The position numbers and the translations under genes are program-made. DNA of 64,000 nucleotides from Myxococcaceae bacterium JPH2 (lineage in GTDB: Bacteria; Myxococcota; Myxococcia; Myxococcales; Myxococcaceae), in assembly GCA_016458225.1 (NCBI GenBank), contig JAEMGR010000003.1:868001-932000 (forward strand), written 5' to 3'. Numbering within the stretch: position 1 is the first letter of the stretch; every line of letters starts with the position of its first letter. Shown here piece after piece: positions 45,935 through 61,268 of this stretch. The notes under the pieces were generated by a model. It was given only the letters and a program-made list of their open reading frames with translations, was not told the origin of the DNA and made no database searches.

Positions 45935-46027
45935 TGTGGACAACGTGTGGGCAACTCTGGGGACAGAGAGTCCATGAATGATTCCAGCGGTTTAGGGACC
46001 GCTTGGACAGGGAGACGCTGTGGATAA
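45935..46027 (-). promoter_or_regulatory. DnaA-box cluster between mnmG and rsmG
   Basis: Three same-orientation boxes, read on the minus strand: TTGTCCACA (45935-45943), TTGCCCACA (45946-45954) and a perfect TTATCCACA (46019-46027). The perfect box covers the rsmG start codon. The spacing of the first two is 11 bases. This could regulate rsmG, titrate DnaA, or be an auxiliary or alternative origin element. Function is inference. Confidence 0.5.
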
Positions 46028-46670
46028 CGCGCGGTTCTCAGATCAGCTCGCGGTGGGATGCCGAGCCTTGGGCGTGTCGGTGGGGGAGGACGTGGGGCCT
46101 CGGCTGTTCCGGCTGATGGGCGAGCTCCTCAAGTGGAACGCCAAGGTGAACCTCACGGCCATCACCGCGCCGGACGAGGTGCTGGAGAAGCACTTCCTGG
46201 ACTCGCTCGCGGTGCTGCCCGAGGTGACGGGGGCGACCTCGTTGTTGGACCTGGGCGCGGGCGCGGGCTTCCCGGGGTTGCCGTTGCGAGTGACCTTGCC
46301 GACCTTGGGCGTGACGTTGGTGGACGCGGTGGGGAAGAAGGTCGCGTTCATCAAGGCGGCCTCGGCGACATTGGGGTTGGGCGTGCGGGGACTGCACGCG
46401 CGCGCGGAGGGCAAGCCCGAGGCGGAGGGGATTCCCCGCGCGCAGGTCCTGATTGCGCGAGCGTTCATGGACTTGCCGGACTGGTTGGCGCTCGCGCCCG
46501 CGTATGTGGAGCCGGGAGGTCGCGTGGTGGCGATGCTCGGCAAGGCGCAGACGGACGCGGAGCTGGCGGCGCGCGCGGCGGAGCGGAACCTGAAGGTGGT
46601 GTCGGCGCGGGCCTATCGGCTCCCGTTCTCCGGAGCGGAGCGGCAGGTGGCGGTGTTCGCGAAGGAGTAG
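46020..46670 (+). CDS. rsmG: 16S rRNA (guanine527-N7)-methyltransferase RsmG (GidB)
   Basis: A 216-residue SAM-dependent methyltransferase that makes m7G527 in 16S rRNA. The RsmG N-terminal helices (LFRLMGELLKWNAKVNLTAI, then EVLEKHFLDSLAVL) precede the SAM motif SLLDLGAGAGFPGLPL. VTLVDAVGKKVAFIKAAS and IARAFMDLPDWLAL complete the family pattern. The start is GTG 46020, which lies inside a perfect DnaA box (TGTGGATAA at 46019-46027). A terminator hairpin follows at 46683-46704. Between mnmG and the parS zone, it marks the left border of the origin-proximal segregation locus. Confidence 0.95.
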   Translation: MDNARFSDQLAVGCRALGVSVGEDVGPRLFRLMGELLKWNAKVNLTAITAPDEVLEKHFLDSLAVLPEVTGATSLLDLGAGAGFPGLPLRVTLPTLGVTLVDAVGKKVAFIKAASATLGLGVRGLHARAEGKPEAEGIPRAQVLIARAFMDLPDWLALAPAYVEPGGRVVAMLGKAQTDAELAARAAERNLKVVSARAYRLPFSGAERQVAVFAKE

Positions 46671-47217: not shown

Positions 47218-50197
47218 CGCAAGGCCGCGGAACGCGCGAGCCGCGAGCGGATGCCCGTGAAGTGCGATGAGGGCGCTCCTCCCGAGTCCTTCGCCCGCGA
47301 CGTGGGCACGAAGGTCGAAGCGGGAGTTGATCCGCTCCGACGGAGCAACGTGACCCGGCGATAGCGCGGACGTCTTCGCATGAAGACGTGGTCCGTCGAG
47401 GCACGCGTACGAAGTCATCTGTCAGCCGCGCTTCGAGAAGTCGGGTCCGTTCCTGACTCGGACGTGGTCTGCGCGTGGCAGAGGGCACCTCAATCCCGAA
47501 GGTCCAGCGCCAGTGATGTCTCAGCGGTTCGAGTCGCCGAGCGCATCGGCTCCGCGCGTGGAACCTCTCCATGGGGCATCGGCTGACGAGGACTCATCGC
47601 CAACAAGGATGGCCGGTCAGCGGCAACTGATCCGCAGGCAGGAGCAGGCCGCGCTTCCATCCACAGGTTCGCAAGAGTCCTCGGAGAGGAGGGCTGACGG
47701 ACTGAGAGGCGCGAGCACGACTGAAGCGCGCAGCGACATCGAGGGCATCGAAGTGTGTCGCCGTTCGACATCCCCAGAACGGGGGAGGGCGGGTTCTCGG
47801 AAGGGGAGGGGAGGGGACACCAGGTGCTGAAGAGGCGAACTCCCCAGGCCACCACCGACCGGTGCCAGCCGAGACACGACCGCATCGCGGCTCAGCGGAT
47901 TCACGGCGCGGAGCCCCGCTCGATTCACAGGAGGGCATGCCCGAGCCTGCCTCACTCCAGGCTCATCACCGCGAGCCCCTGGAGCCCTTCCTCAGTCCAG
48001 GTGGAAGAGGCGCGCTCGGAGCATCGGCGCGTCAGGAGCCGATGCTCTGAGCCGCGCCACGCTGAGCCCAGCCCACCATGTCGCGCTTGCGCCATTCGGA
48101 CCTCAATCATCCCTGAGGAATGACGACCTGGGAGTGGAGCGACAGGGCGCGCACGAGAGTCATCAGCACCCAGCGAGACTGCTCACGCGATGCTCGCTGT
48201 CAGCGTCTCCGTTCGGATCCATGGGGTGGCGACGCGGCCCATGCACGTTCCACAGGGAACCCACATGAGCGCTCGGAGTCAGTCACGGTTGGCCGCCTCC
48301 CGAATGCGATGAGGAGACTGTGAGGTCGACACGCGAACCCTCATCGCAGTGACCGACCGCAGCCGAACGGCGCCACTTCGGTTCCCCATGGAACGCGTCG
48401 CAGTCCCGCCAGTCTCGGCAGAGTGAATCGCGCCAGCCGCAACTCAGGTCTGGGTGGGCGATCCCAGGTTCTCGAACCATCCGTCGAGAGCGCGAGGGGT
48501 CCATCCGTCGAATGCAGACCGTCAGCCCGAAGGTGCGGATGCGAGTGTCTCGTGCCTGAGCCACTCAAGCATCAGGCCCGCATCACCACCGAGTCCTCAG
48601 CCGCCAAGCAGCTTCTCGACACGACCCCCATGTTTCGCGACGCGAGCGCATCCGGCGGAGTCGTTGCACATGCGCCGAGGATGGGGACCTGCAGTCGTGC
48701 TGCGCTGTGCACATTGGGGACGCCACGCCACGGCGGCACGTGGATGAAGGCAAGGCCGAGGAGACTGCTCCGAGAGCCATGCCTCATGGCGCTCGAAGCG
48801 ACGCGGACGAGGCCGATGAGGAACAGCCCGAAGCACATCCATCACAGCCCTGTTGGGGACCGGCGATGCCCCATGGACTGCACCGCCAGGGACAGGTTCC
48901 GACGGGATGCGAAGCCTTCCAATCTGCGCTCACCCGCGAGGGGCGTGACACCGCATCGGATGTGCCGTGCCCATGACGCCCAGCGAGTAGCGAGGTGGAT
49001 GGACGTCATGCACGCCACCATGCCGAGCCGATGCTCCGCGAGAGCGGCGGATGACGCCGAGCTTCATCACAGGCGAGCTCGCGCAATCACCCGGCCGGTT
49101 CAGGCCATGTGCCGCTGACATGAGCAGCAAGTCGCCGCCGGGTTCGCAGCAGCCCGAGCCTGCGCGAGGCAGTGCGCAAGTCGTCGATGCGGTTCCACAC
49201 GGAACGCCGCGAAGCGCGCAGCGACTTCGTGGCCCAAGGGAAGTCAGCAGCGTCAGAGACGGACTCAGGACCGGAGCGCGACGCCTCTCCAGCAGGTGAC
49301 GTCGATGGACTCGGAGGTGCGCTGCATCCGGTCCGAAGAGTCGTTCCCCTGGAGTGCGGAGGCTCACCCGCGGACCCCATGATGAACCGAAGTGAGGCAG
49401 CACTTGGGTGCCACCGTGACCAGCAAGGCATGCAGGGCACCGATGCCTGAAGTGCGGTGACACCGAACCCGAAGCGCAGGAACGGAGCGCCTCTGCGTCG
49501 CGAGGACGACAGGCCAGTCCTCACCACCCAATCCGCGCAGGGCAACGACATGGATGGCCTTCCACACGGGGCAACGCTGTGCCCAAGACGCTGATGCGTG
49601 CGAGTCGCCGAGACCTGCTCCGGCTTCGACGACATGACGGGTGAAGTTGGTAGGCCACGTCGTGGCACCGAACCCGCCCGAAGCAGTGCCCACGAATGCG
49701 GCTCGACCTGGACCATGGCTGCTGACCTACGAGCCCTGTGATGAACCGAAGTGAGTCAGGTCTCGAGTTTCATCATGGCCAATCCGGCCATCTTCGTTCC
49801 CCCATGAGCCATGGCCCTGACGCCTGGAGGAGTGGGCGCTGGTTCCCAAGTCAAAGCGTGAGCCAGAGTTCTTCGGCTCGATGAGGTGGGCGTGCCCGGT
49901 CACACCATTGGACCGCACGAAGCAACGGCTCATGGGTGCCAAGCGATGGTGCACCGTGGAGCCGATGAGTGGCCCGCGTGGCGGGCTGACGAGAGTCGGG
50001 TCGCAGGTCCACAGGGTGGTCCGTGAGCCTGACCATCGCTCCAGTTGGACCCGTGGTGAGCGCCTCGCCCGATGCTTGTCGAACGACGAGGCCCGCCGAG
50101 TTCGAAGCGGACGGATGGGGAAGCCACCTCGCTGCGCGGTGCGCTCGGCATGCCCGGTCATGCACCGGACTCGCGCGGAGCAACACCGCTCGGAGCC
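47218..50197. other. left part of the gene-free segregation zone, with decayed parS-like sites
   Basis: About 3 kb without a credible gene: open frames are short, Arg/Ser-rich, and the third-position G/C bias of the neighbours is absent. Three 14-mers are two mismatches from GTTCCACGTGGAAC: GTTCCACAGGGAAC (48247-48260), GTTCCCCATGGAAC (48381-48394) and GTTCCACACGGAAC (49192-49205). The phrase GAACCGAAGTGAG occurs at 49386 and 49745 and resembles text between the good parS sites. This looks like an eroded older part of the parS array. Confidence 0.6.
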
Positions 50198-50211
50198 GTT
50201 CCACGTGGAAC
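50198..50211. promoter_or_regulatory. parS site 1 (perfect)
   Basis: Exact GTTCCACGTGGAAC. Leftmost perfect copy; a decayed partner (GTTCGAGATGGAAC) lies 86 bases to the right at 50284-50297. Confidence 0.92.
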
Positions 50212-50447
50212 ACGACGGTCCATCCGTGCGCCTGAGTTGAGCGGGCTCACCGGTCCGATGGGTGGCTGATGAGGCCCGCCTTCGTTCGAGATGGAACCGT
50301 GCCCGACGCATCACCTCGATGCTTCATGGTGGGTGATGCGTGTTCCGGATCCGGGGCCGAAAGCTGGTGAGCGAGAGGCGCTGCTTTGTGGGCCTCACGT
50401 GCCCGGACTCGCTACCAAGCCTGCACGAAGCAGTGACTCACGAAGCC

Positions 50448-50461
50448 GTTCCACGTGGAAC
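50448..50461. promoter_or_regulatory. parS site 2 (perfect)
   Basis: Exact 14-mer, first-type context (ACGGAGGCTC follows). Next site 86 bases on. Confidence 0.92.
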
Positions 50462-50533
50462 ACGGAGGCTCACCAACGAGCCCGAGGTGACTCGGTTCGT
50501 GGAGGCGCTGCGCGGTCAGCGAGGTTCGTCAGC

Positions 50534-50547
50534 GTTCCACGTGGAAC
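50534..50547. promoter_or_regulatory. parS site 3 (perfect)
   Basis: Exact 14-mer, second-type context (followed by AGCACTGAGG). Confidence 0.92.
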
Positions 50548-50683
50548 AGCACTGAGGCGCGGATTGAGCGCGAGCCTCCAACGACCGTGGGATGGATCCA
50601 GCTCCCTGCAAGGGTCGTCGAGACCTGTTCCGTCCATCCCTGCAGCGAGGCTTGGCTGAGCCACGAGACAGGCCCGAAGTGCT

Positions 50684-50697
50684 GCTCCACGTGGAAC
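50684..50697. promoter_or_regulatory. parS site 4 (one mismatch)
   Basis: GCTCCACGTGGAAC; second base changed. First-type context (GAAGTGCT before). Confidence 0.85.
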
Positions 50698-50770
50698 CCG
50701 GAAGTGCATCCACGAGCCCCGAAGTGAGTTCGTTCTCCATTCCAACGGGGTCGCCGATGAGGCCATCCAC

Positions 50771-50784
50771 GTTCCACGTGGAAC
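50771..50784. promoter_or_regulatory. parS site 5 (perfect)
   Basis: Exact 14-mer after GATGAGGCCATCCAC, followed by AGCGCTGAGC (second type). Confidence 0.92.
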
Positions 50785-50920
50785 AGCGCTGAGCAGGTGT
50801 CAGCGCGAAGCACGAACAAGGGTGAGAGTTGGATCCGAAGCCGTGGAAGGGGCGGGGAGCGTCTCGCCATCCAACGTGACCGAGTGGCTCAGGCCGTCCT
50901 CAACCTGTGCTCGAACTGCT

Positions 50921-50934
50921 GTTCCACGTGGAAC
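50921..50934. promoter_or_regulatory. parS site 6 (perfect)
   Basis: Exact 14-mer, followed by ACGGAAGCCCATCC (first type). Confidence 0.92.
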
Positions 50935-51006
50935 ACGGAAGCCCATCCACACGCCCGAACGGCGGCTGGTCGTCGGTCCTTTGCAAGGTCGATGAGGCCC
51001 GTCGGT

Positions 51007-51020
51007 GTTCCACGTGGAAC
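51007..51020. promoter_or_regulatory. parS site 7 (perfect)
   Basis: Exact 14-mer after GATGAGGCCCGTCGGT. The next expected site (about 51158) is missing; only a remnant, GTGAAGCACGAAG, is visible there. Confidence 0.92.
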
Positions 51021-51243
51021 AGCCCATTCACATCGCCCCAGCGCTTGAAGGTCAGCGCACTGACCTCGGATCCGAAGCCAGAAGAGGTGGCGATGGACGG
51101 TTCGTCCGGGAGTGTTCCTGGGTTCGGATGGGTCGCGCGAGATGGGTGCGAACTGTCGAAACAGGTGAAGCACGAAGGCACATCGGCGAACCCCAAGTGG
51201 GTCCCTTCGCCGGTCAGTTCCATGGCCCGTGAGGCCCGTGCTT

Positions 51244-51257
51244 GTTCCACGTGGAAC
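51244..51257. promoter_or_regulatory. parS site 8 (perfect)
   Basis: Exact 14-mer, second type (followed by AGCGCCGCACGCATC), 237 bases after site 7, that is one full module. Confidence 0.92.
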
Positions 51258-51394
51258 AGCGCCGCACGCATCCCGCCGATGCTTGAAGTGCCGTGCACGG
51301 GCTCCGGATCCGCGGTCGAAGGACGCGGCAATCAGTGGCTGAGCGAAGTGCCGTCCCGCGGTTTCGAAGGGTCACGCGTTGAGGTCGAAGTGCT

Positions 51395-51408
51395 GTTCCA
51401 CGTGGAAG
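51395..51408. promoter_or_regulatory. parS site 9 (one mismatch, left end of the palindrome)
   Basis: GTTCCACGTGGAAG; last base changed. It forms the left end of the 192-bp palindrome and mirrors site 11. Confidence 0.87.
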
Positions 51409-51480
51409 AAACACGGGCCGCACTCTCCACGAAACCGACCGTCGAAGGGACCCACTTGGGGCTCGCGGATTCGGCTTCGT

Positions 51481-51494
51481 GTTCCACGTGGAAC
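51481..51494. promoter_or_regulatory. parS site 10 (perfect, centre of the palindrome)
   Basis: Exact 14-mer whose dyad (between 51487 and 51488) is the dyad of the whole 192-bp inverted repeat. Confidence 0.93.
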
Positions 51495-51566
51495 ACGAAG
51501 CCGAATCGGCGAGCCCCAAGTGGGTCCCTTCGACGGTCGGTTTCGTGGACTGTGCGGCCCGTGTTT

Positions 51567-51580
51567 GTTCCACGTGGAAC
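51567..51580. promoter_or_regulatory. parS site 11 (perfect)
   Basis: Exact 14-mer; second site of 238-bp copy 1 and right end of the palindrome. Confidence 0.93.
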
Positions 51581-51718
51581 AGCGCTGCGCGCATCACTCC
51601 GATGCTTGAAGTGCCCGTGCACCGGCTCCGGATCCGCGGTCGAAGGTTGCGGCAAGCGATGGCTGAGCGAAGTGCCGTCCCGCGGTTTCGAAGGGTCACG
51701 AGTTGAGGTCGAAGTGCT

Positions 51719-51732
51719 GTTCCACGTGGAAC
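51719..51732. promoter_or_regulatory. parS site 12 (perfect)
   Basis: Exact 14-mer; first site of 238-bp copy 2. Confidence 0.93.
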
Positions 51733-51804
51733 ACGAAGCCGAATCGGCGAGCCCCAAGTGGGTCCCTTCGACGGTCGGTTTCGTGGACTGTGCGGCCCGT
51801 GTTT

Positions 51805-51818
51805 GTTCCACGTGGAAC
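51805..51818. promoter_or_regulatory. parS site 13 (perfect)
   Basis: Exact 14-mer; second site of 238-bp copy 2. Confidence 0.93.
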
Positions 51819-51956
51819 AGCGCTGCGCGCATCACTCCGATGCTTGAAGTGCCCGTGCACCGGCTCCGGATCCGCGGTCGAAGGTTGCGGCAAGCGATGG
51901 CTGAGCGAAGTGCCGTCCCGCGGTTTCGAAGGGTCACGAGTTGAGGTCGAAGTGCT

Positions 51957-51970
51957 GTTCCACGTGGAAC
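51957..51970. promoter_or_regulatory. parS site 14 (perfect)
   Basis: Exact 14-mer; first site of 238-bp copy 3. Confidence 0.93.
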
Positions 51971-52042
51971 ACGAAGCCGAATCGGCGAGCCCCAAGTGGG
52001 TCCCTTCGACGGTCGGTTTCGTGGACTGTGCGGCCCGTGTTT

Positions 52043-52056
52043 GTTCCACGTGGAAC
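52043..52056. promoter_or_regulatory. parS site 15 (perfect)
   Basis: Exact 14-mer; second site of 238-bp copy 3. Confidence 0.93.
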
Positions 52057-52194
52057 AGCGCTGCGCGCATCACTCCGATGCTTGAAGTGCCCGTGCACCG
52101 GCTCCGGATCCGCGGTCGAAGGTTGCGGCAAGCGATGGCTGAGCGAAGTGCCGTCCCGCGGTTTCGAAGGGTCACGAGTTGAGGTCGAAGTGCT

Positions 52195-52208
52195 GTTCCA
52201 CGTGGAAC
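52195..52208. promoter_or_regulatory. parS site 16 (perfect)
   Basis: Exact 14-mer just after copy 3; sequence beyond it (ACGAAGACGCATC) belongs to a diverged module. Confidence 0.93.
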
Positions 52209-52269
52209 ACGAAGACGCATCAGCGAGACCGAAGTGAGCCCGTGCGCGGGACCGATGAGGCCTGCCGTT

Positions 52270-52283
52270 GTTCCACGTGGAAC
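52270..52283. promoter_or_regulatory. parS site 17 (perfect)
   Basis: Exact 14-mer after GATGAGGCCTGCCGTT; the short spacer here is 75 instead of 86. Confidence 0.92.
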
Positions 52284-52420
52284 AGCGCTGCCTGCGTCGC
52301 GCTGAGGATGGAGGGGCCTCACGCCGGCTCCGGATCCGTAGCCGAAGGAAGCAGTCAGCGGTGGGGTTGTGAAGTGCTGCCTCGCGGTTTCGGGGAGCCA
52401 CGAGTTGAGGTCGAAGCGCC

Positions 52421-52434
52421 GCACCACGTGGAAC
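52421..52434. promoter_or_regulatory. parS site 18 (two mismatches)
   Basis: GCACCACGTGGAAC; keeps the CCACGTGG core and the 151-base spacing from site 17. Confidence 0.75.
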
Positions 52435-52517
52435 ACGAAGACGCATCCATGGGCTCGCGATGGGCCGGATGTGAATTGGGTCTCGGCCTTGTTCGGCTGC
52501 TGGTGAGGCTCATCAAC

Positions 52518-52531
52518 GTTCCACGTGGAAC
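52518..52531. promoter_or_regulatory. parS site 19 (perfect)
   Basis: Exact 14-mer, second type (followed by AGCGCTGCGTGC). Confidence 0.92.
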
Positions 52532-52664
52532 AGCGCTGCGTGCATCACGTGGAGGGTTGATGGACCACGCGCCAGTCCTTGGAGCCGCGGCTGGGTGAGG
52601 AGGCCATCGACGGCTTCACCAGGGCTCGCGTTCTGCGGGGGCCGCGAGTTGAGGTCGAAGCGCC

Positions 52665-52678
52665 GTTCCACGTGGAAC
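52665..52678. promoter_or_regulatory. parS site 20 (perfect)
   Basis: Exact 14-mer, first type (followed by ACGAGGCGCATCGC). Confidence 0.92.
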
Positions 52679-52748
52679 ACGAGGCGCATCGCTGAACCGG
52701 AAGTGAGCCCGGTCGCGGAACCCGTGGGCGCCCATGAGGCCCGCGCTT

Positions 52749-52762
52749 GTTTCACGTGGAAC
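52749..52762. promoter_or_regulatory. parS site 21 (one mismatch)
   Basis: GTTTCACGTGGAAC; fourth base changed. Second-type context (GGCGCTGG follows). Confidence 0.85.
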
Positions 52763-52926
52763 GGCGCTGGGCGTGTCGCCCTGAGGGTTGAAGTGCCGCG
52801 CGGCCTCGGATCCTTGGCCGAGGGACGGGCCACCGATGACTTCAATGAGTGAGGCCGTTGGGCTCGTGGTGCGCCCGAAGTGCGTGGGGTCCCAACTGCG
52901 GTCCGGCGCCAGTGAGGACCGTCAGC

Positions 52927-52940
52927 GTTCCACGTGGAAC
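52927..52940. promoter_or_regulatory. parS site 22 (perfect)
   Basis: Exact 14-mer; rightmost perfect copy, after GTGAGGACCGTCAGC. Confidence 0.92.
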
Positions 52941-53442
52941 AGCGAAGAGGAGGTCTCGGCCTGAGGCTTGAAGTGACCGCGACGGAAGCCGAGGTCGAAG
53001 CCAAGGAGCCGAGGTCGATGGCGTCGGTGTGTCGCGAACTCGGCCGAGGTGATGTGGCGGAACGGAGGTCCTTCGTGAGCCATGGATGCGAGTGCACAGA
53101 CCTCGCGACGGGCCACCTGAGCTAGGTCGCACGTCCACGTGGATGACTGGTGCGGTCTGCTTCATTCCACCTGGAACCGTGCCAGTCGCACACCGGTCGG
53201 ATGCTTGAGGGCTGACCAAGCACTGGCCTCGAAGATCAACGGCGAGAGCATCCGCAGACCTGCGTGGATGAACCGAACACGCCCGAGAGGTCGTGGGCGA
53301 GCTGGATGAAAAGTGGCTCGAAGGTGGAGGCGCTCAGCCCCACTGAGTTCCACCTGGACCGGCGCAGGTCGTGCGCATGAGCGCGCGGTTGAGCAGGAGA
53401 GGTTGCGAGGTCCGTCATCCCGTGCGGAGCAATGCCGACGGA

Positions 53443-53456: not shown

Positions 53457-54941
53457 TCCAGGGACCGCCCACCGAGGTCTGGATGCGGGTGCTCGGTGAC
53501 GCGGCACGCTCAATCCATGAATCGTGAGCCTCGGTGTTCGGCCCGCGGACCATGCGCCGGAGTCGAGTCAGCGCATCGCGAACCGCTCGAACCTCAGGTG
53601 CTGTCAGTGACGGGCCCGCGCAGTGAGGCATCCTGGTCGCAGGACATGTCGAGTCACAGGGAGCCGCCCTGTTCGCCCCCGCGATGAATCCACGGTGACC
53701 GTCGTTGCTTCATGAGGAACGAGGGCCGCCGCGAATCCGCATCCGATGCGTCGCGTGGGTGCGGCGTCGCCATGGGCGGAACACGTGCTCGACCTCAGGC
53801 CAACCGGGGTGATGCGCATGGGTGGTCGACATCAACGGTCCAGTTGGAGCGCGTCTCACCTTCGCGGCGAAGTCGCCATGCAGGCAGGTGCCGGCCAGCA
53901 ACCCAAGGAAGGGGACGAGTGGCCTGGGCGAAGTGCCACCGTCTTCGGAGAAGTCGCCATGCAGGCAGTTGCTGGCCAGCAACCCAAGGAAGGGGACGCG
54001 TAGCCTGGGCGAAGTGCCACCGCCGGCTTCACGAGCGAGGCAGATGCTGTAGTCAGGCTTCGAGATGGACCCGCGAGGCTCTCGGTCGAGGGTCGTGAAG
54101 ACACGGTGCCGCCGCGACTCGTGGAGATGGAATACCAGGTGGTCGCCGCCTCGTGGCCCATGGACGCAGCAGTCCGGACCGATGGCTGGGCGGCGAATCC
54201 ACGCAAGACGCCGCGAAGGACATCGCGAGGGCACGAAGCGCCGAATGCGTCGCGGTGCGAGATGCCTGCTACTCCACGCTCGCGACACGCCGAAGCCGGA
54301 GGCAGGGACGTGTCGCGAGTGGAGCCGATGAGGCGAACGGCTTCATCGAAGGCGCAAAGTGCACGAGGTGCTGCATGGCTCATCGGACGGCTGCTCGGAC
54401 GGTCGCTGTGCTGACGTTGAGGATGAAGCCGAGCCTCACGAGTTGGTGTGCGAAGTAGGGCGACGAGATGAAGCTGAGCCCGCTGGCGAAGAGGGCTCCG
54501 CTGAAAGCACGCGGGGGACGAACGGGGTGGGGCGAGTGATGGCCAGGCTGCGCCTGACGCCGAAGCCAAGTCTCGGCGCGGAGTTGGTAGCGAAGTTGAG
54601 GCGCGAGGTGGGGCTCAGCCGCAGCTGAGTCGCAATCAGGGAACCATGCGGGACCGAGATGCTGCTGCACTCCGAACGGTCCGATGACGCGGGCTGAATG
54701 GTCCGGCCGCAGCGACAAGCAAAGGCATCGATCCCCCATGCTCACGCAAGAAACGAGGTCCTCGTTGCCTCCGCGATAGAGGCGAGCGTGTCGGAACGAT
54801 GCACTCAGCTCAAGGGCTGGTCGCGGCGCAAACTGGGCGGTCGGCGCAGCGGAGTGCTCAGCCCGGCCGCCCCGCTGCTGCGATGGATCCGAGTCCCTGT
54901 CCCGAGGGAGTCAGTGCAGTCATGCCGGCTGCGCAAGGTTC
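53457..54941. other. gene-free spacer between the parS cluster and the 127-bp satellite
   Basis: No credible gene. It contains an 81-bp direct duplication at 53869-54030 and scattered GAAGTG and GATGAGGC phrases like those in the parS modules, but no parS core beyond 53456. Confidence 0.5.
53869..54030 (+). repeat. 81-bp direct repeat, two copies
   Basis: Copies at 53869-53949 and 53950-54030 share GAAGTCGCCATGCAGGCAG at the start, and CCAGCAACCCAAGGAAGG and CTGGGCGAAGTGCCACCG inside, with a few substitutions. Confidence 0.85.
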
Positions 54942-56213
54942 GCGAGCGCGTTGGAGCGAAGCGCTCGGTTGGAAGTGCGAGGCACCGCTTCGAGCCGGCT
55001 CTGAAGACTGCGCTGACTGGCCGAACAGCGACTGACGATTCAGCCGCCCGGTATGACGCTGGCCGATGGTGGCGAGCACGTTGGAACAAAGCGCTTGGTT
55101 GGAAGTGCAAGGCACCGCTTCGAATCGGCTCCGCGAATCGCTCTGTCTGGCCGGACAGCGACCGACGATCCAGCCTCACGGGGCGCTGGCCAATGGTGGC
55201 GAGCGCGCTGGGGCGAAGCACTCGGCTGGAAGTGCGGGGCACCGCGTCGAACCGGCTCCGCGAATCGCCCTGTCTGGCCGGACAGCGACCGACGATCCAG
55301 CCTCACGGAGCGCTGGCCAATGGTGGCGAGCGCGCTGGGTCGAAGCACTCGGCTGGAAGTGCGGGGCACCGCTTCGAACCGGCTCCGCGAATCGCCCTGT
55401 CTGGCCGGACAGCGACCGACGATCCAGCCTCACGGAGCGCTGGCCAATGGTGGCGAGCGCGCTGGGTCGAAGCACTCGGCTGGAAGTGCGGGGCACCGCT
55501 TCGAACCGGCTCCGCGAATCGCCCTGTCTGGCCGGACAGCGACCGACGATCCAGCCTCACGGAGCGCTGGCCAATGGTGGCGAGCGCGCTGGGTCGAAGC
55601 ACTCGGCTGGAAGTGCGGGGCACCGCTTCGAACCGGCTCCGCGAATCGCCCTGTCTGGCCGGACAGCGACCGACGATCCAGCCTCACGGAGCGCTGGCCA
55701 ATGGTGGCGAGCGCGCTGGGTCGAAGCACTCGGCTGGAAGTGCGGGGCACCGCTTCGAACCGGCTCCGCGAATCGCCCTGTCTGGCCGGACAGCGACCGA
55801 CGATCCAGCCTCACGGAGCGCTGGCCAATGGTGGCGAGCGCGCTGGGTCGAAGCACTCGGCTGGAAGTGCGGGGCACCGCTTCGAACCGGCTCTGCAACC
55901 TGCGCCAGCTTGCCGGATAGCGACTGACGATTCAGTCGCTCGGAGGGCTGGCCCATGGCGGCGAGCGCACTGGGACGAAGCGCTTGGGTGGAAGGGCGGG
56001 GCACCACTTCGAACGGCTCTGCGAGTTGCTCTAGCTGCCCGCACAACGGCCGACGATTCGGCCGCTCGGAGCGCTGGCCAATGGCGGCGAGCGCGTTGGT
56101 ACGAAGCGCTCGGTTGGAAATGTGGGGCACAGCTTCGAACCGGCGCTGCAAACTGCGCTGACTGGCCGAACAACGACTGACGATTCAGCCGCACGGTGCG
56201 TTCGCGGAAGCGG
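54942..56213 (+). repeat. 127-bp satellite, ten tandem copies
   Basis: Units start (at GCGAGC) at 54942, 55072, 55199, 55326, 55453, 55580, 55707, 55834, 55960 and 56087. The four from 55326 to 55833 look identical; those at both edges diverge. Each unit has the near-palindrome CTGTCTGGCCGGACAG and a fold-back GAAGTGCGG...CCGCTTC. It is not related to the parS module. The frame stays open for long stretches because 127 is not a multiple of 3 and stops are rare; I do not regard that as coding. Confidence 0.92.
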
Positions 56214-59476: not shown

Positions 59477-60280
59477 ATGGAGCACGTGGGTCGAATCATC
59501 TGCATCTCCAACCAGAAGGGCGGCGTGGGTAAGACCACCACCGCCATCAACCTCGCCGCGAGCCTGGCCTCCGCCGAGCGCCGCACGCTCCTGGTGGACA
59601 TGGACCCGCAGGGGAACGCGGGCAGCGGACTCGGCCTCAAGCGCGACGTGCTCCACGGCACCGTCTATGAGGCGCTCCTGAACGGCCGCCCCGCCGAGGA
59701 GCTGCTCCACGCCACCGAGCTGCGCTACCTCCAGGTCATCCCCGCGACGCCCGACCTCACCGGCGCCGAGGTCGAGCTGGTGAACCAGGAGGGCCGCGAG
59801 TTCCGCCTCCGCGAGGCGCTGCGCCCCCTCAAGGCCGCATACGACTACATCATCATCGACTGCCCGCCGTCGCTCGGCCTGCTCACCCTGAACGCGCTCA
59901 TCGCGGCGGACTCGGTGCTCATCCCCCTCCAGTGCGAGTACTACGCCCTCGAGGGCCTGTCGCAGCTGACGCACACCATCGACCTGGTGAAGCAGGGCCT
60001 CAACCCCGAGCTGAAGATGGAGGGCATCCTGCTCACCATGTTCGACTCGCGCGCGAACATCGCGCACCAGGTCGTCGAGGAAGTGCGGGGCTACTTCAAG
60101 GAGCAGGTGTTCGAGGTCCTCGTGCCGCGCAACGTGCGCCTGTCCGAGTGCCCGTCCTTCGGCAAGCCCATCATCCTGTACGACATCAAGTCGAAGGGCT
60201 GCGAGAGCTACCTGGCGCTCGGCCGGGAAATCATGCGCCGGGAGACGCCGCCCGCCGCGCCCAAGCGGCGCGTGGCCTGA
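59477..60280 (+). CDS. parA: chromosome partitioning ATPase ParA
   Basis: A 267-residue P-loop ATPase of the deviant Walker A class. NQKGGVGKTTTAINLAASLA near the N-terminus has the signature Lys (KGGVGKT, residues 14-20). VDMDPQGNAGSGLGL carries the switch I Asp, and DYIIIDCPPSLGLLTLNALI the Walker B. The end includes LVPRNVRLSECPSFGKPIIL. ParA dimers bind the nucleoid and pull ParB-parS complexes. ATG 59477 sits directly on GAGAGG; GTG 59486 (VGRIICISNQKG) has better ribosome-site spacing and may be the true start. parB follows after 100 bases. Confidence 0.96.
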   Translation: MEHVGRIICISNQKGGVGKTTTAINLAASLASAERRTLLVDMDPQGNAGSGLGLKRDVLHGTVYEALLNGRPAEELLHATELRYLQVIPATPDLTGAEVELVNQEGREFRLREALRPLKAAYDYIIIDCPPSLGLLTLNALIAADSVLIPLQCEYYALEGLSQLTHTIDLVKQGLNPELKMEGILLTMFDSRANIAHQVVEEVRGYFKEQVFEVLVPRNVRLSECPSFGKPIILYDIKSKGCESYLALGREIMRRETPPAAPKRRVA

Positions 60281-60380: not shown

Positions 60381-61268
60381 GTGGTGAATTCAGACAAGCA
60401 CAAGCGCGCGCTCGGGCGAGGCCTCTCCGCGCTCATTCCGCAGGCCGCTCCGGCCCCCGCGCCCGCGGCCGAGCCGCCTCCGCGCGCCGGCGTCCTCAAG
60501 CTGCCCATCGAGTCCATCCACCGCGACACCGAGCAGCCGCGCCGCCACTTCGACCCGACCAAGCTCACCGAGCTGACCGAGTCCATCAAGGCGCAGGGCC
60601 TGCTGCAGCCGGTGCTCGTGCGCAAGTCCGGGGATGGCTACAAGCTCATCGCCGGTGAGCGACGGTGGCGGGCCTCTCAGGCGGCCGGGCTGAAGGAGAT
60701 TCCGGCCATCGTCCGGGAGGTCACCGAGGTCCAGGCCTTCGAGCTGGCCCTGGTGGAGAACCTCCAGCGCGCGGACCTCAACCCGATTGAAGAGGCGGAC
60801 GGCTACAAGCGCCTCATCGACGAGTTCAAGCTCACGCAGGAGCAGGTGGCGCAGCGGGTGGGCAAGGAGCGCTCCACCGTGGCGAACGCGCTGCGGTTGC
60901 TCGCCCTGCCCGACGACGTGAAGGACATGGTGGCCGACGGCGCCCTCTCCATGGGCCATGCGCGCGCGCTGCTCGGCGTGCCTCGGCTGCCGGAGCTGCA
61001 GAACCTGGCGCGCCAGGTGACGGAGAAGAAGCTCTCCGTGCGCGACACGGAGAAGCTCGTCCAGCAGAACCGCTCGACGAAGAAGGACGCGGGAAAGCCG
61101 GCACCCAAGCAGAGTCCGCAGGTGCGCTCGCTCGTGGAGGAACTCCAGCGCAGATTGGGGACGAAGGTCCGCCTGTCGGAGAAAAGCCCAGGAAAAGGCA
61201 CCCTCGAAGTGGACTTCTTCTCCTACGATGACCTGGATCGTCTGTTGAAGATTCTCAGGAAGGAGTAG
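60381..61268 (+). CDS. parB: chromosome partitioning protein ParB (CTP-dependent clamp)
   Basis: A 295-residue parS-binding protein. The N-terminus RALGRGLSALIPQ is the ParA-contact motif. After a Pro/Ala linker, LPIESIHRDTEQPRRHFDPT and AGERRWRASQAAG (GERRxR motif, residues 92-97) form the CTP-binding fold. LVENLQRADLNPIEEADGYK leads into the helix-turn-helix LTQEQVAQRVGKERSTVANA that reads GTTCCACGTGGAAC. The C-terminal dimer domain ends DLDRLLKILRKE. The start is GTG 60381 (a second GTG follows directly). bacM begins 3 bases after its stop, so the two are one transcript. Confidence 0.97.
   Translation: MVNSDKHKRALGRGLSALIPQAAPAPAPAAEPPPRAGVLKLPIESIHRDTEQPRRHFDPTKLTELTESIKAQGLLQPVLVRKSGDGYKLIAGERRWRASQAAGLKEIPAIVREVTEVQAFELALVENLQRADLNPIEEADGYKRLIDEFKLTQEQVAQRVGKERSTVANALRLLALPDDVKDMVADGALSMGHARALLGVPRLPELQNLARQVTEKKLSVRDTEKLVQQNRSTKKDAGKPAPKQSPQVRSLVEELQRRLGTKVRLSEKSPGKGTLEVDFFSYDDLDRLLKILRKE

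Follow-up and report, generated by a model that had tools for sequence, protein, structure and literature searches.

Descriptions of the centromere of M. xanthus, as given in the sections of PMC3899335 and PMC3778016 available to us, locate a cluster of more than 20 parS sites, about 3 kb long, upstream of parA, with parAB downstream, and the latter source adds that ParB binds the parS motif in vitro. Two further groups of studies are relevant to the locus described here. Template switching yields reverse-complement copies, according to the available part of PMC8794818, and DNA-protein crosslinks stimulate such switching in E. coli, according to that of PMC6357072; quasipalindrome mutations are pictured in these two excerpts as reverse-complement copies that arise close to their source when replication runs briefly along a different strand. 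Palindromes of 246, 460, and 480 bp have been engineered in E. coli; in the portion of PMC4245961 at hand, the 460-bp perfect palindrome is lethal once SbcCD is expressed, and recombination-proficient cells with SbcCD tolerate a 246-bp interrupted palindrome.

The window analysed in this study is the whole stretch of 64,000 nucleotides from Myxococcaceae bacterium JPH2. It contains a cluster of 21 parS sites linked to parB and to a parA-like gene, the ATPase gene lying upstream of parB (Table 1). A search for the 12-mer with at most one mismatch gave 23 matches, against 0.06 expected, and all 19 exact copies of TTCCACGTGGAA in the window's own genome were found inside this single cluster. From its clustered 16-bp palindromic parS sites and linked parA and parB, the array is predicted to be a chromosomal ParABS centromere. 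The motif is near-identical to the M. xanthus consensus, TGTTCCACGTGGAACG, and the number of sites and the placement of parAB are likewise similar to those in the excerpts cited above; the difference is a long palindrome, of which the same excerpts of PMC3899335 and PMC3778016 report none in the M. xanthus cluster. The closest named relative is Citreicoccus inhibens M34, whose ParB is 99% identical to that of the window. A ParB 82% identical to the window's is encoded on BNCN01000018.1 (L134), which is titled Comamonas sp. KCTC 72670; the title is probably wrong. On a reading of the frames, about 12 kb beyond 47.2 kb is repeat-rich and appears to hold no convincing gene. This part also includes an 81-bp direct repeat present twice downstream of the array (53865-54022) and, between the array and parA but outside the cluster, about 10 tandem copies of a 127-bp unit (54942-56200).

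Table 1 Features of the window, followed by the hairpins of genus g23 (positions on the respective loci)
Feature	Position	Strand	Basis or remark
rsmG	46020-46670
parS array, 21 sites	50197..52941	none	at most 2 mismatches to TGTTCCACGTGGAACA
Older diverged X copy (X0), then parS site 8	51173..51258	+	83% to X; left parS unrecognisable
Y0 spacer, left of inverted X	51259..51393	+	91% to triplicated Y
Near-perfect palindrome, 192 bp	51392..51583	none	arm comparison, fold energy
parS site 9, palindrome left end, outer junction of inverted copy	51394..51409	none	TGTTCCACGTGGAAGA, one mismatch
Extra inverted copy of spacer X	51410..51479	-	67/70 bases equal to three direct X copies once reverse-complemented
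parS site 10, palindrome centre and inner junction	51480..51495	none	perfect match
Three identical tandem 238-bp parS-X-parS-Y units	51480..52193	+	X1-X3 and Y1-Y3 identical
Spacer X, normal orientation, right arm	51496..51565	+	spacer alignment
parS site 11, palindrome right end	51566..51581	none	perfect match
parA-like ATPase gene	59477..60280	+	ParA superfamily; under cut-offs of all NCBIfam models matched
parB	60381..61268	+	TIGR00180 above cut-off
g23 hairpin	L123:9370-9472
g23 hairpin	L124:9219-9343
g23 hairpin	L126:4350-4452
g23 hairpin	L115:10627-10787

The spacers between the parS sites alternate between a short form, X (usually 70 bp), and a long form, Y (131-136 bp), and run through the region as X0-Y0-(reversed X)-X1-Y1-X2-Y2-X3-Y3. 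Near 51158 (51158-51172) this rhythm predicts a parS and none is recognisable, which suggests a decaying site; another decaying site, CGCACCACGTGGAACA, was observed at 52420 (52420-52435).

A preliminary description of this DNA had reported two spacerless 96-base arms differing at about four positions, with parS at the centre and at both ends. Comparison of the arms bore this out and fixed the number of differences at exactly four. The segment 51392-51487 is the reverse complement of 51488-51583 except at 51408/51567 (G on both arms), 51424/51551 (T on both), 51425/51550 (C on both), and 51467/51508 (G on both), and parS site 10 occupies the centre and sites 9 and 11 the ends. In a scan of the whole window, the palindrome scored 80 and the runner-up 10; with laxer scoring, extended to 782,578 bases from its genome (window included), the scores were 84 and 14. 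Furthermore, its single strand folded at -133.7 kcal/mol, compared with -42.6 (sd 3.69) for 200 shuffles, none of which matched it. The palindrome is exceptional within the scanned part of the genome and has no counterpart there.

The left arm consists largely of the reversed X. This spacer showed 96% identity to X1-X3, 80% to X0, and at most 57% to every other X copy; accordingly, its source is, as judged from these identities, the adjacent X or one of its identical copies. If the first and the second parS of an X are called A-type and B-type, its outer junction connects the left flank that normally precedes an A-type site to the left flank of a B-type site in reverse; at its inner junction, one and the same right flank stands in mirror image on either side of a perfect parS. 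As read off the sequence, both junctions fall inside parS, with 16-18 bp in common. An artefactual fold-back during assembly or library preparation would give one junction and an identical arm, whereas here there are two junctions, the normal order resumes on the left side, the inverted arm has four private differences from its partner, and no k-mer of at least 42 bases is common to the arms in reverse complement. We regard such an artefact as very unlikely, even though the genome is a draft of 144 contigs, one of merely 206 bases, which suggests short reads; the concern is weakened, not removed. We are less sure of how many identical 238-bp units there are than of the palindrome itself.

Subsequently, the array was compared with those of relatives. 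The family search covered 96 genomes, this one included, and the arrays of 61 of the other 95 were compared (51 with the two-site pattern and 10 with an exact 16-mer); the 34 genomes left out include G006, G009, G017, and G032, which have sites at one mismatch or fewer. The resulting 62 arrays contain 1,291 parS-like sites, and no second long parS-centred palindrome was found among them, 20 of the 61 relatives' arrays being on contigs of at least 8.9 Mb and the others on shorter contigs, mostly drafts where a palindrome could be missed, with some compared stretches cut off where a contig finishes. Elsewhere, perfect parS-centred palindromes reached an arm of 16 bases at most (L118). The genus of M. 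xanthus is included in the 61 arrays, and the long palindrome is in none of them. The preliminary description had proposed looking for the same inverted module in relatives; this was done, and it was present in 0 of the 61 other arrays. The array of C. inhibens M34 (L049), the only congener searched, gave no inverted spacer matches, and its spacers, about 70-75% identical in the longer matches, are too diverged to place an exact empty site.

The orientation of the spacers was strongly biased. Comparison of 12,058 within-array spacer pairs of the 62 arrays gave 939 similar pairs for the direct orientation and 4 for the inverted one, with 2 in the reversed-only control, and all four inverted pairs involve the spacer at 51410-51479. 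The 939 direct pairs against 4 inverted ones suggest that the arrays grow by direct duplication, and the single spacer shared by all four inverted pairs suggests that the fold-back was a single late event. The earlier idea that a fold-back event created the array was thus half right: a fold-back centred on and bounded by parS is consistent with the data, but an origin of the array by fold-back is contradicted by the 939 direct against 4 inverted pairs and by the presence of an inverted spacer in only 1 of 62 arrays.

We also looked for symmetry around parS in general, using 1,289 sites and cross-site pairing of flanks as the expectation. Scores of at least 12 were obtained 150 times (112.77 expected), of at least 14 60 times (45.5 expected), of at least 18 nine times (11.07 expected), and of at least 20 five times (5.09 expected). 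A general excess was therefore rejected, being slight at low scores and absent at high scores beyond this palindrome. Below the threshold of the spacer-pair comparison, L109 yielded one self-hit besides two weak pairs in inverted orientation (64% and 72%), and L050, L051, and L113 had four more inverted pairs (60-90%, three of them shorter than 40 bases). Self-complementary segments were found in L113, L115, L116, L123, L124, L126, L051, L105, L068, and L052; they were rejected as the same phenomenon in eight of these ten loci (all but L068 and L052; one segment in each), where no recognised parS lies inside the segment. In genus g23, a long imperfect hairpin of near-identical sequence recurs inside the array interval, away from recognised parS (Table 1).

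Taken together, these findings make it likely that the palindrome is a single inverted duplication, produced by a template switch out and back at parS, in a cluster that otherwise grows directly. A strand under synthesis that had passed through X and entered the parS bounding it on the left would change template there; parS being identical to its reverse complement, this strand could fold back and pair with itself or with the sister strand. X would then be copied backwards up to the next parS, where the strand would re-anneal to the original template and copying would resume, so that one event would account for both junctions. Indeed, the inserted segment is a reverse-complement copy of the neighbouring one at 67 of 70 bases, and both switch points are at short homologous or inverted repeats, namely the parS sites. 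The event, which we infer from the sequence, resembles quasipalindrome mutations as outlined in the excerpts of PMC8794818 and PMC6357072, and it differs from them in switching at centromere sites and in giving rise to a 192-bp near-perfect palindrome. Of 206 ends of recent direct repeats, 56 lay within parS, compared with 19.9 expected by area, a figure biased upward by alignments that run on through any shared parS; parS may be a common junction more generally. That ParB on parS stalls the fork as crosslinks do is speculation. If parS readily triggered switches, more inverted modules would be expected among the 1,291 sites.

The same end product with the same parS junctions would also result from two steps of recombination, in which X is inverted by a crossover between its flanking parS sites and is then placed beside a normal X by unequal crossover. 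The flanking sites repeat each other in both direct and inverted orientation, and the direct similar pairs and the three identical 238-bp units clearly show that unequal exchange operates in these arrays. We nevertheless consider this route unlikely: it requires two events, 16-18 bp of homology is little for exchange by RecA, and none of the other 61 arrays had a palindrome-free inverted module, although simple inversions escape palindrome purging.

The template-switch model has no explanation for one property of the arms, that every one of the four mismatches is a complement-type transversion. This type made up 50 of 308 changes between recent direct spacer duplicates of the arrays, giving an expected share of 0.16, with pairs that are non-independent in that one change can be counted repeatedly. 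The chance of four out of four is 0.0007 if the positions are independent and about 0.004 if the adjacent pair is taken as one event, in a test that was post hoc and used four positions. When X0 was used as the outgroup to polarise the mismatches, together with the parS consensus, the inverted arm was derived at three of the four, and 51424/51551 was ambiguous. One of the differences lies in parS site 9, where G replaces C in the 14-mer core (position 14). The preliminary description had explained it as the mirror of site 11; this explanation fails, since site 11 is perfect and a faithful mirror copy would yield a perfect site 9. The position is altered in only 12 of the 1,291 parS-like sites of the 62 arrays, and for this reason site 9 may be weakened as a ParB site. 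With respect to age, the identities suggest an order from X0 and Y0 (83% and 91%) through the inverted X (96%) to the triplicated XY units (100%); either the inverted X would be older than the triplication, or the triplicated units would have been homogenised since.

We then considered how the palindrome persists. A template switch of this kind would add about one site, the mismatched site 9, and should be near neutral for segregation, since ParB should read parS alike in either orientation. A 192-bp palindrome with mismatches would be a modest burden and would probably be lost eventually; the event looks like a late one-off copying accident, not a working device. Loss of SbcCD was rejected as the reason for survival. 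The genome has sbcD, with a subfamily score above the cut-off and an equivalog score below the NCBI strict cut-off, and an adjoining sbcC-like gene, for which all scores were below the NCBI strict cut-offs and whose frame overruns the examined locus. With SbcD and SbcC encoded, a palindrome nuclease is expected, and this, together with parS at the centre and both ends, is what speaks for the idea that the palindrome is protected or used by ParB, which might, for instance, maintain the central parS as a duplex or bind the base of the hairpin stem, and that selection keeps it. Any spacer duplicated between parS sites would have parS at its ends, and the palindrome, as a ParB-dependent functional element, was conserved in 0 of the 61 other arrays, that of the congener included. 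The tolerance of a 246-bp interrupted palindrome by recombination-proficient E. coli with SbcCD (excerpt of PMC4245961) also argues against protection, which we therefore regard as highly improbable. Like the engineered E. coli palindromes of that source, the present one is long, chromosomal, and in an SbcCD host; it differs in being natural and shorter (192 bp) and in having four mismatches. It is shorter than both the tolerated 246-bp and the lethal 460-bp palindromes, and protection by ParB would not be needed to explain its presence. In a combined form, ParB-covered parS sites would stall forks as paired points for switching out and back, and ParB clamps at the centre and ends would keep the palindrome duplex against SbcCD. 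This we consider very improbable; if it were true, centromere arrays could copy spacers backwards and shelter otherwise forbidden DNA.

In the literature searched, no parS array was described as containing a long palindrome. The locus is a rare but real inverted duplication, probably incidental, and the centromere array that carries it is of a known kind. What is most clearly new is the strong bias of parS arrays towards direct duplication, with one exception, a bias that exists despite parS being palindromic and ParB being expected to be indifferent to orientation. This asymmetry suggests that unequal exchange in direct orientation or slippage drives most of the evolution of the arrays, and that inverted copies are seldom made or are soon lost. 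The array offers a snapshot, with relative ages, of change in a bacterial centromere array in which direct copies are the rule and inverted ones the rare exception, known from one event, and its natural palindrome is a ready test case for the effect of ParB on palindrome stability.
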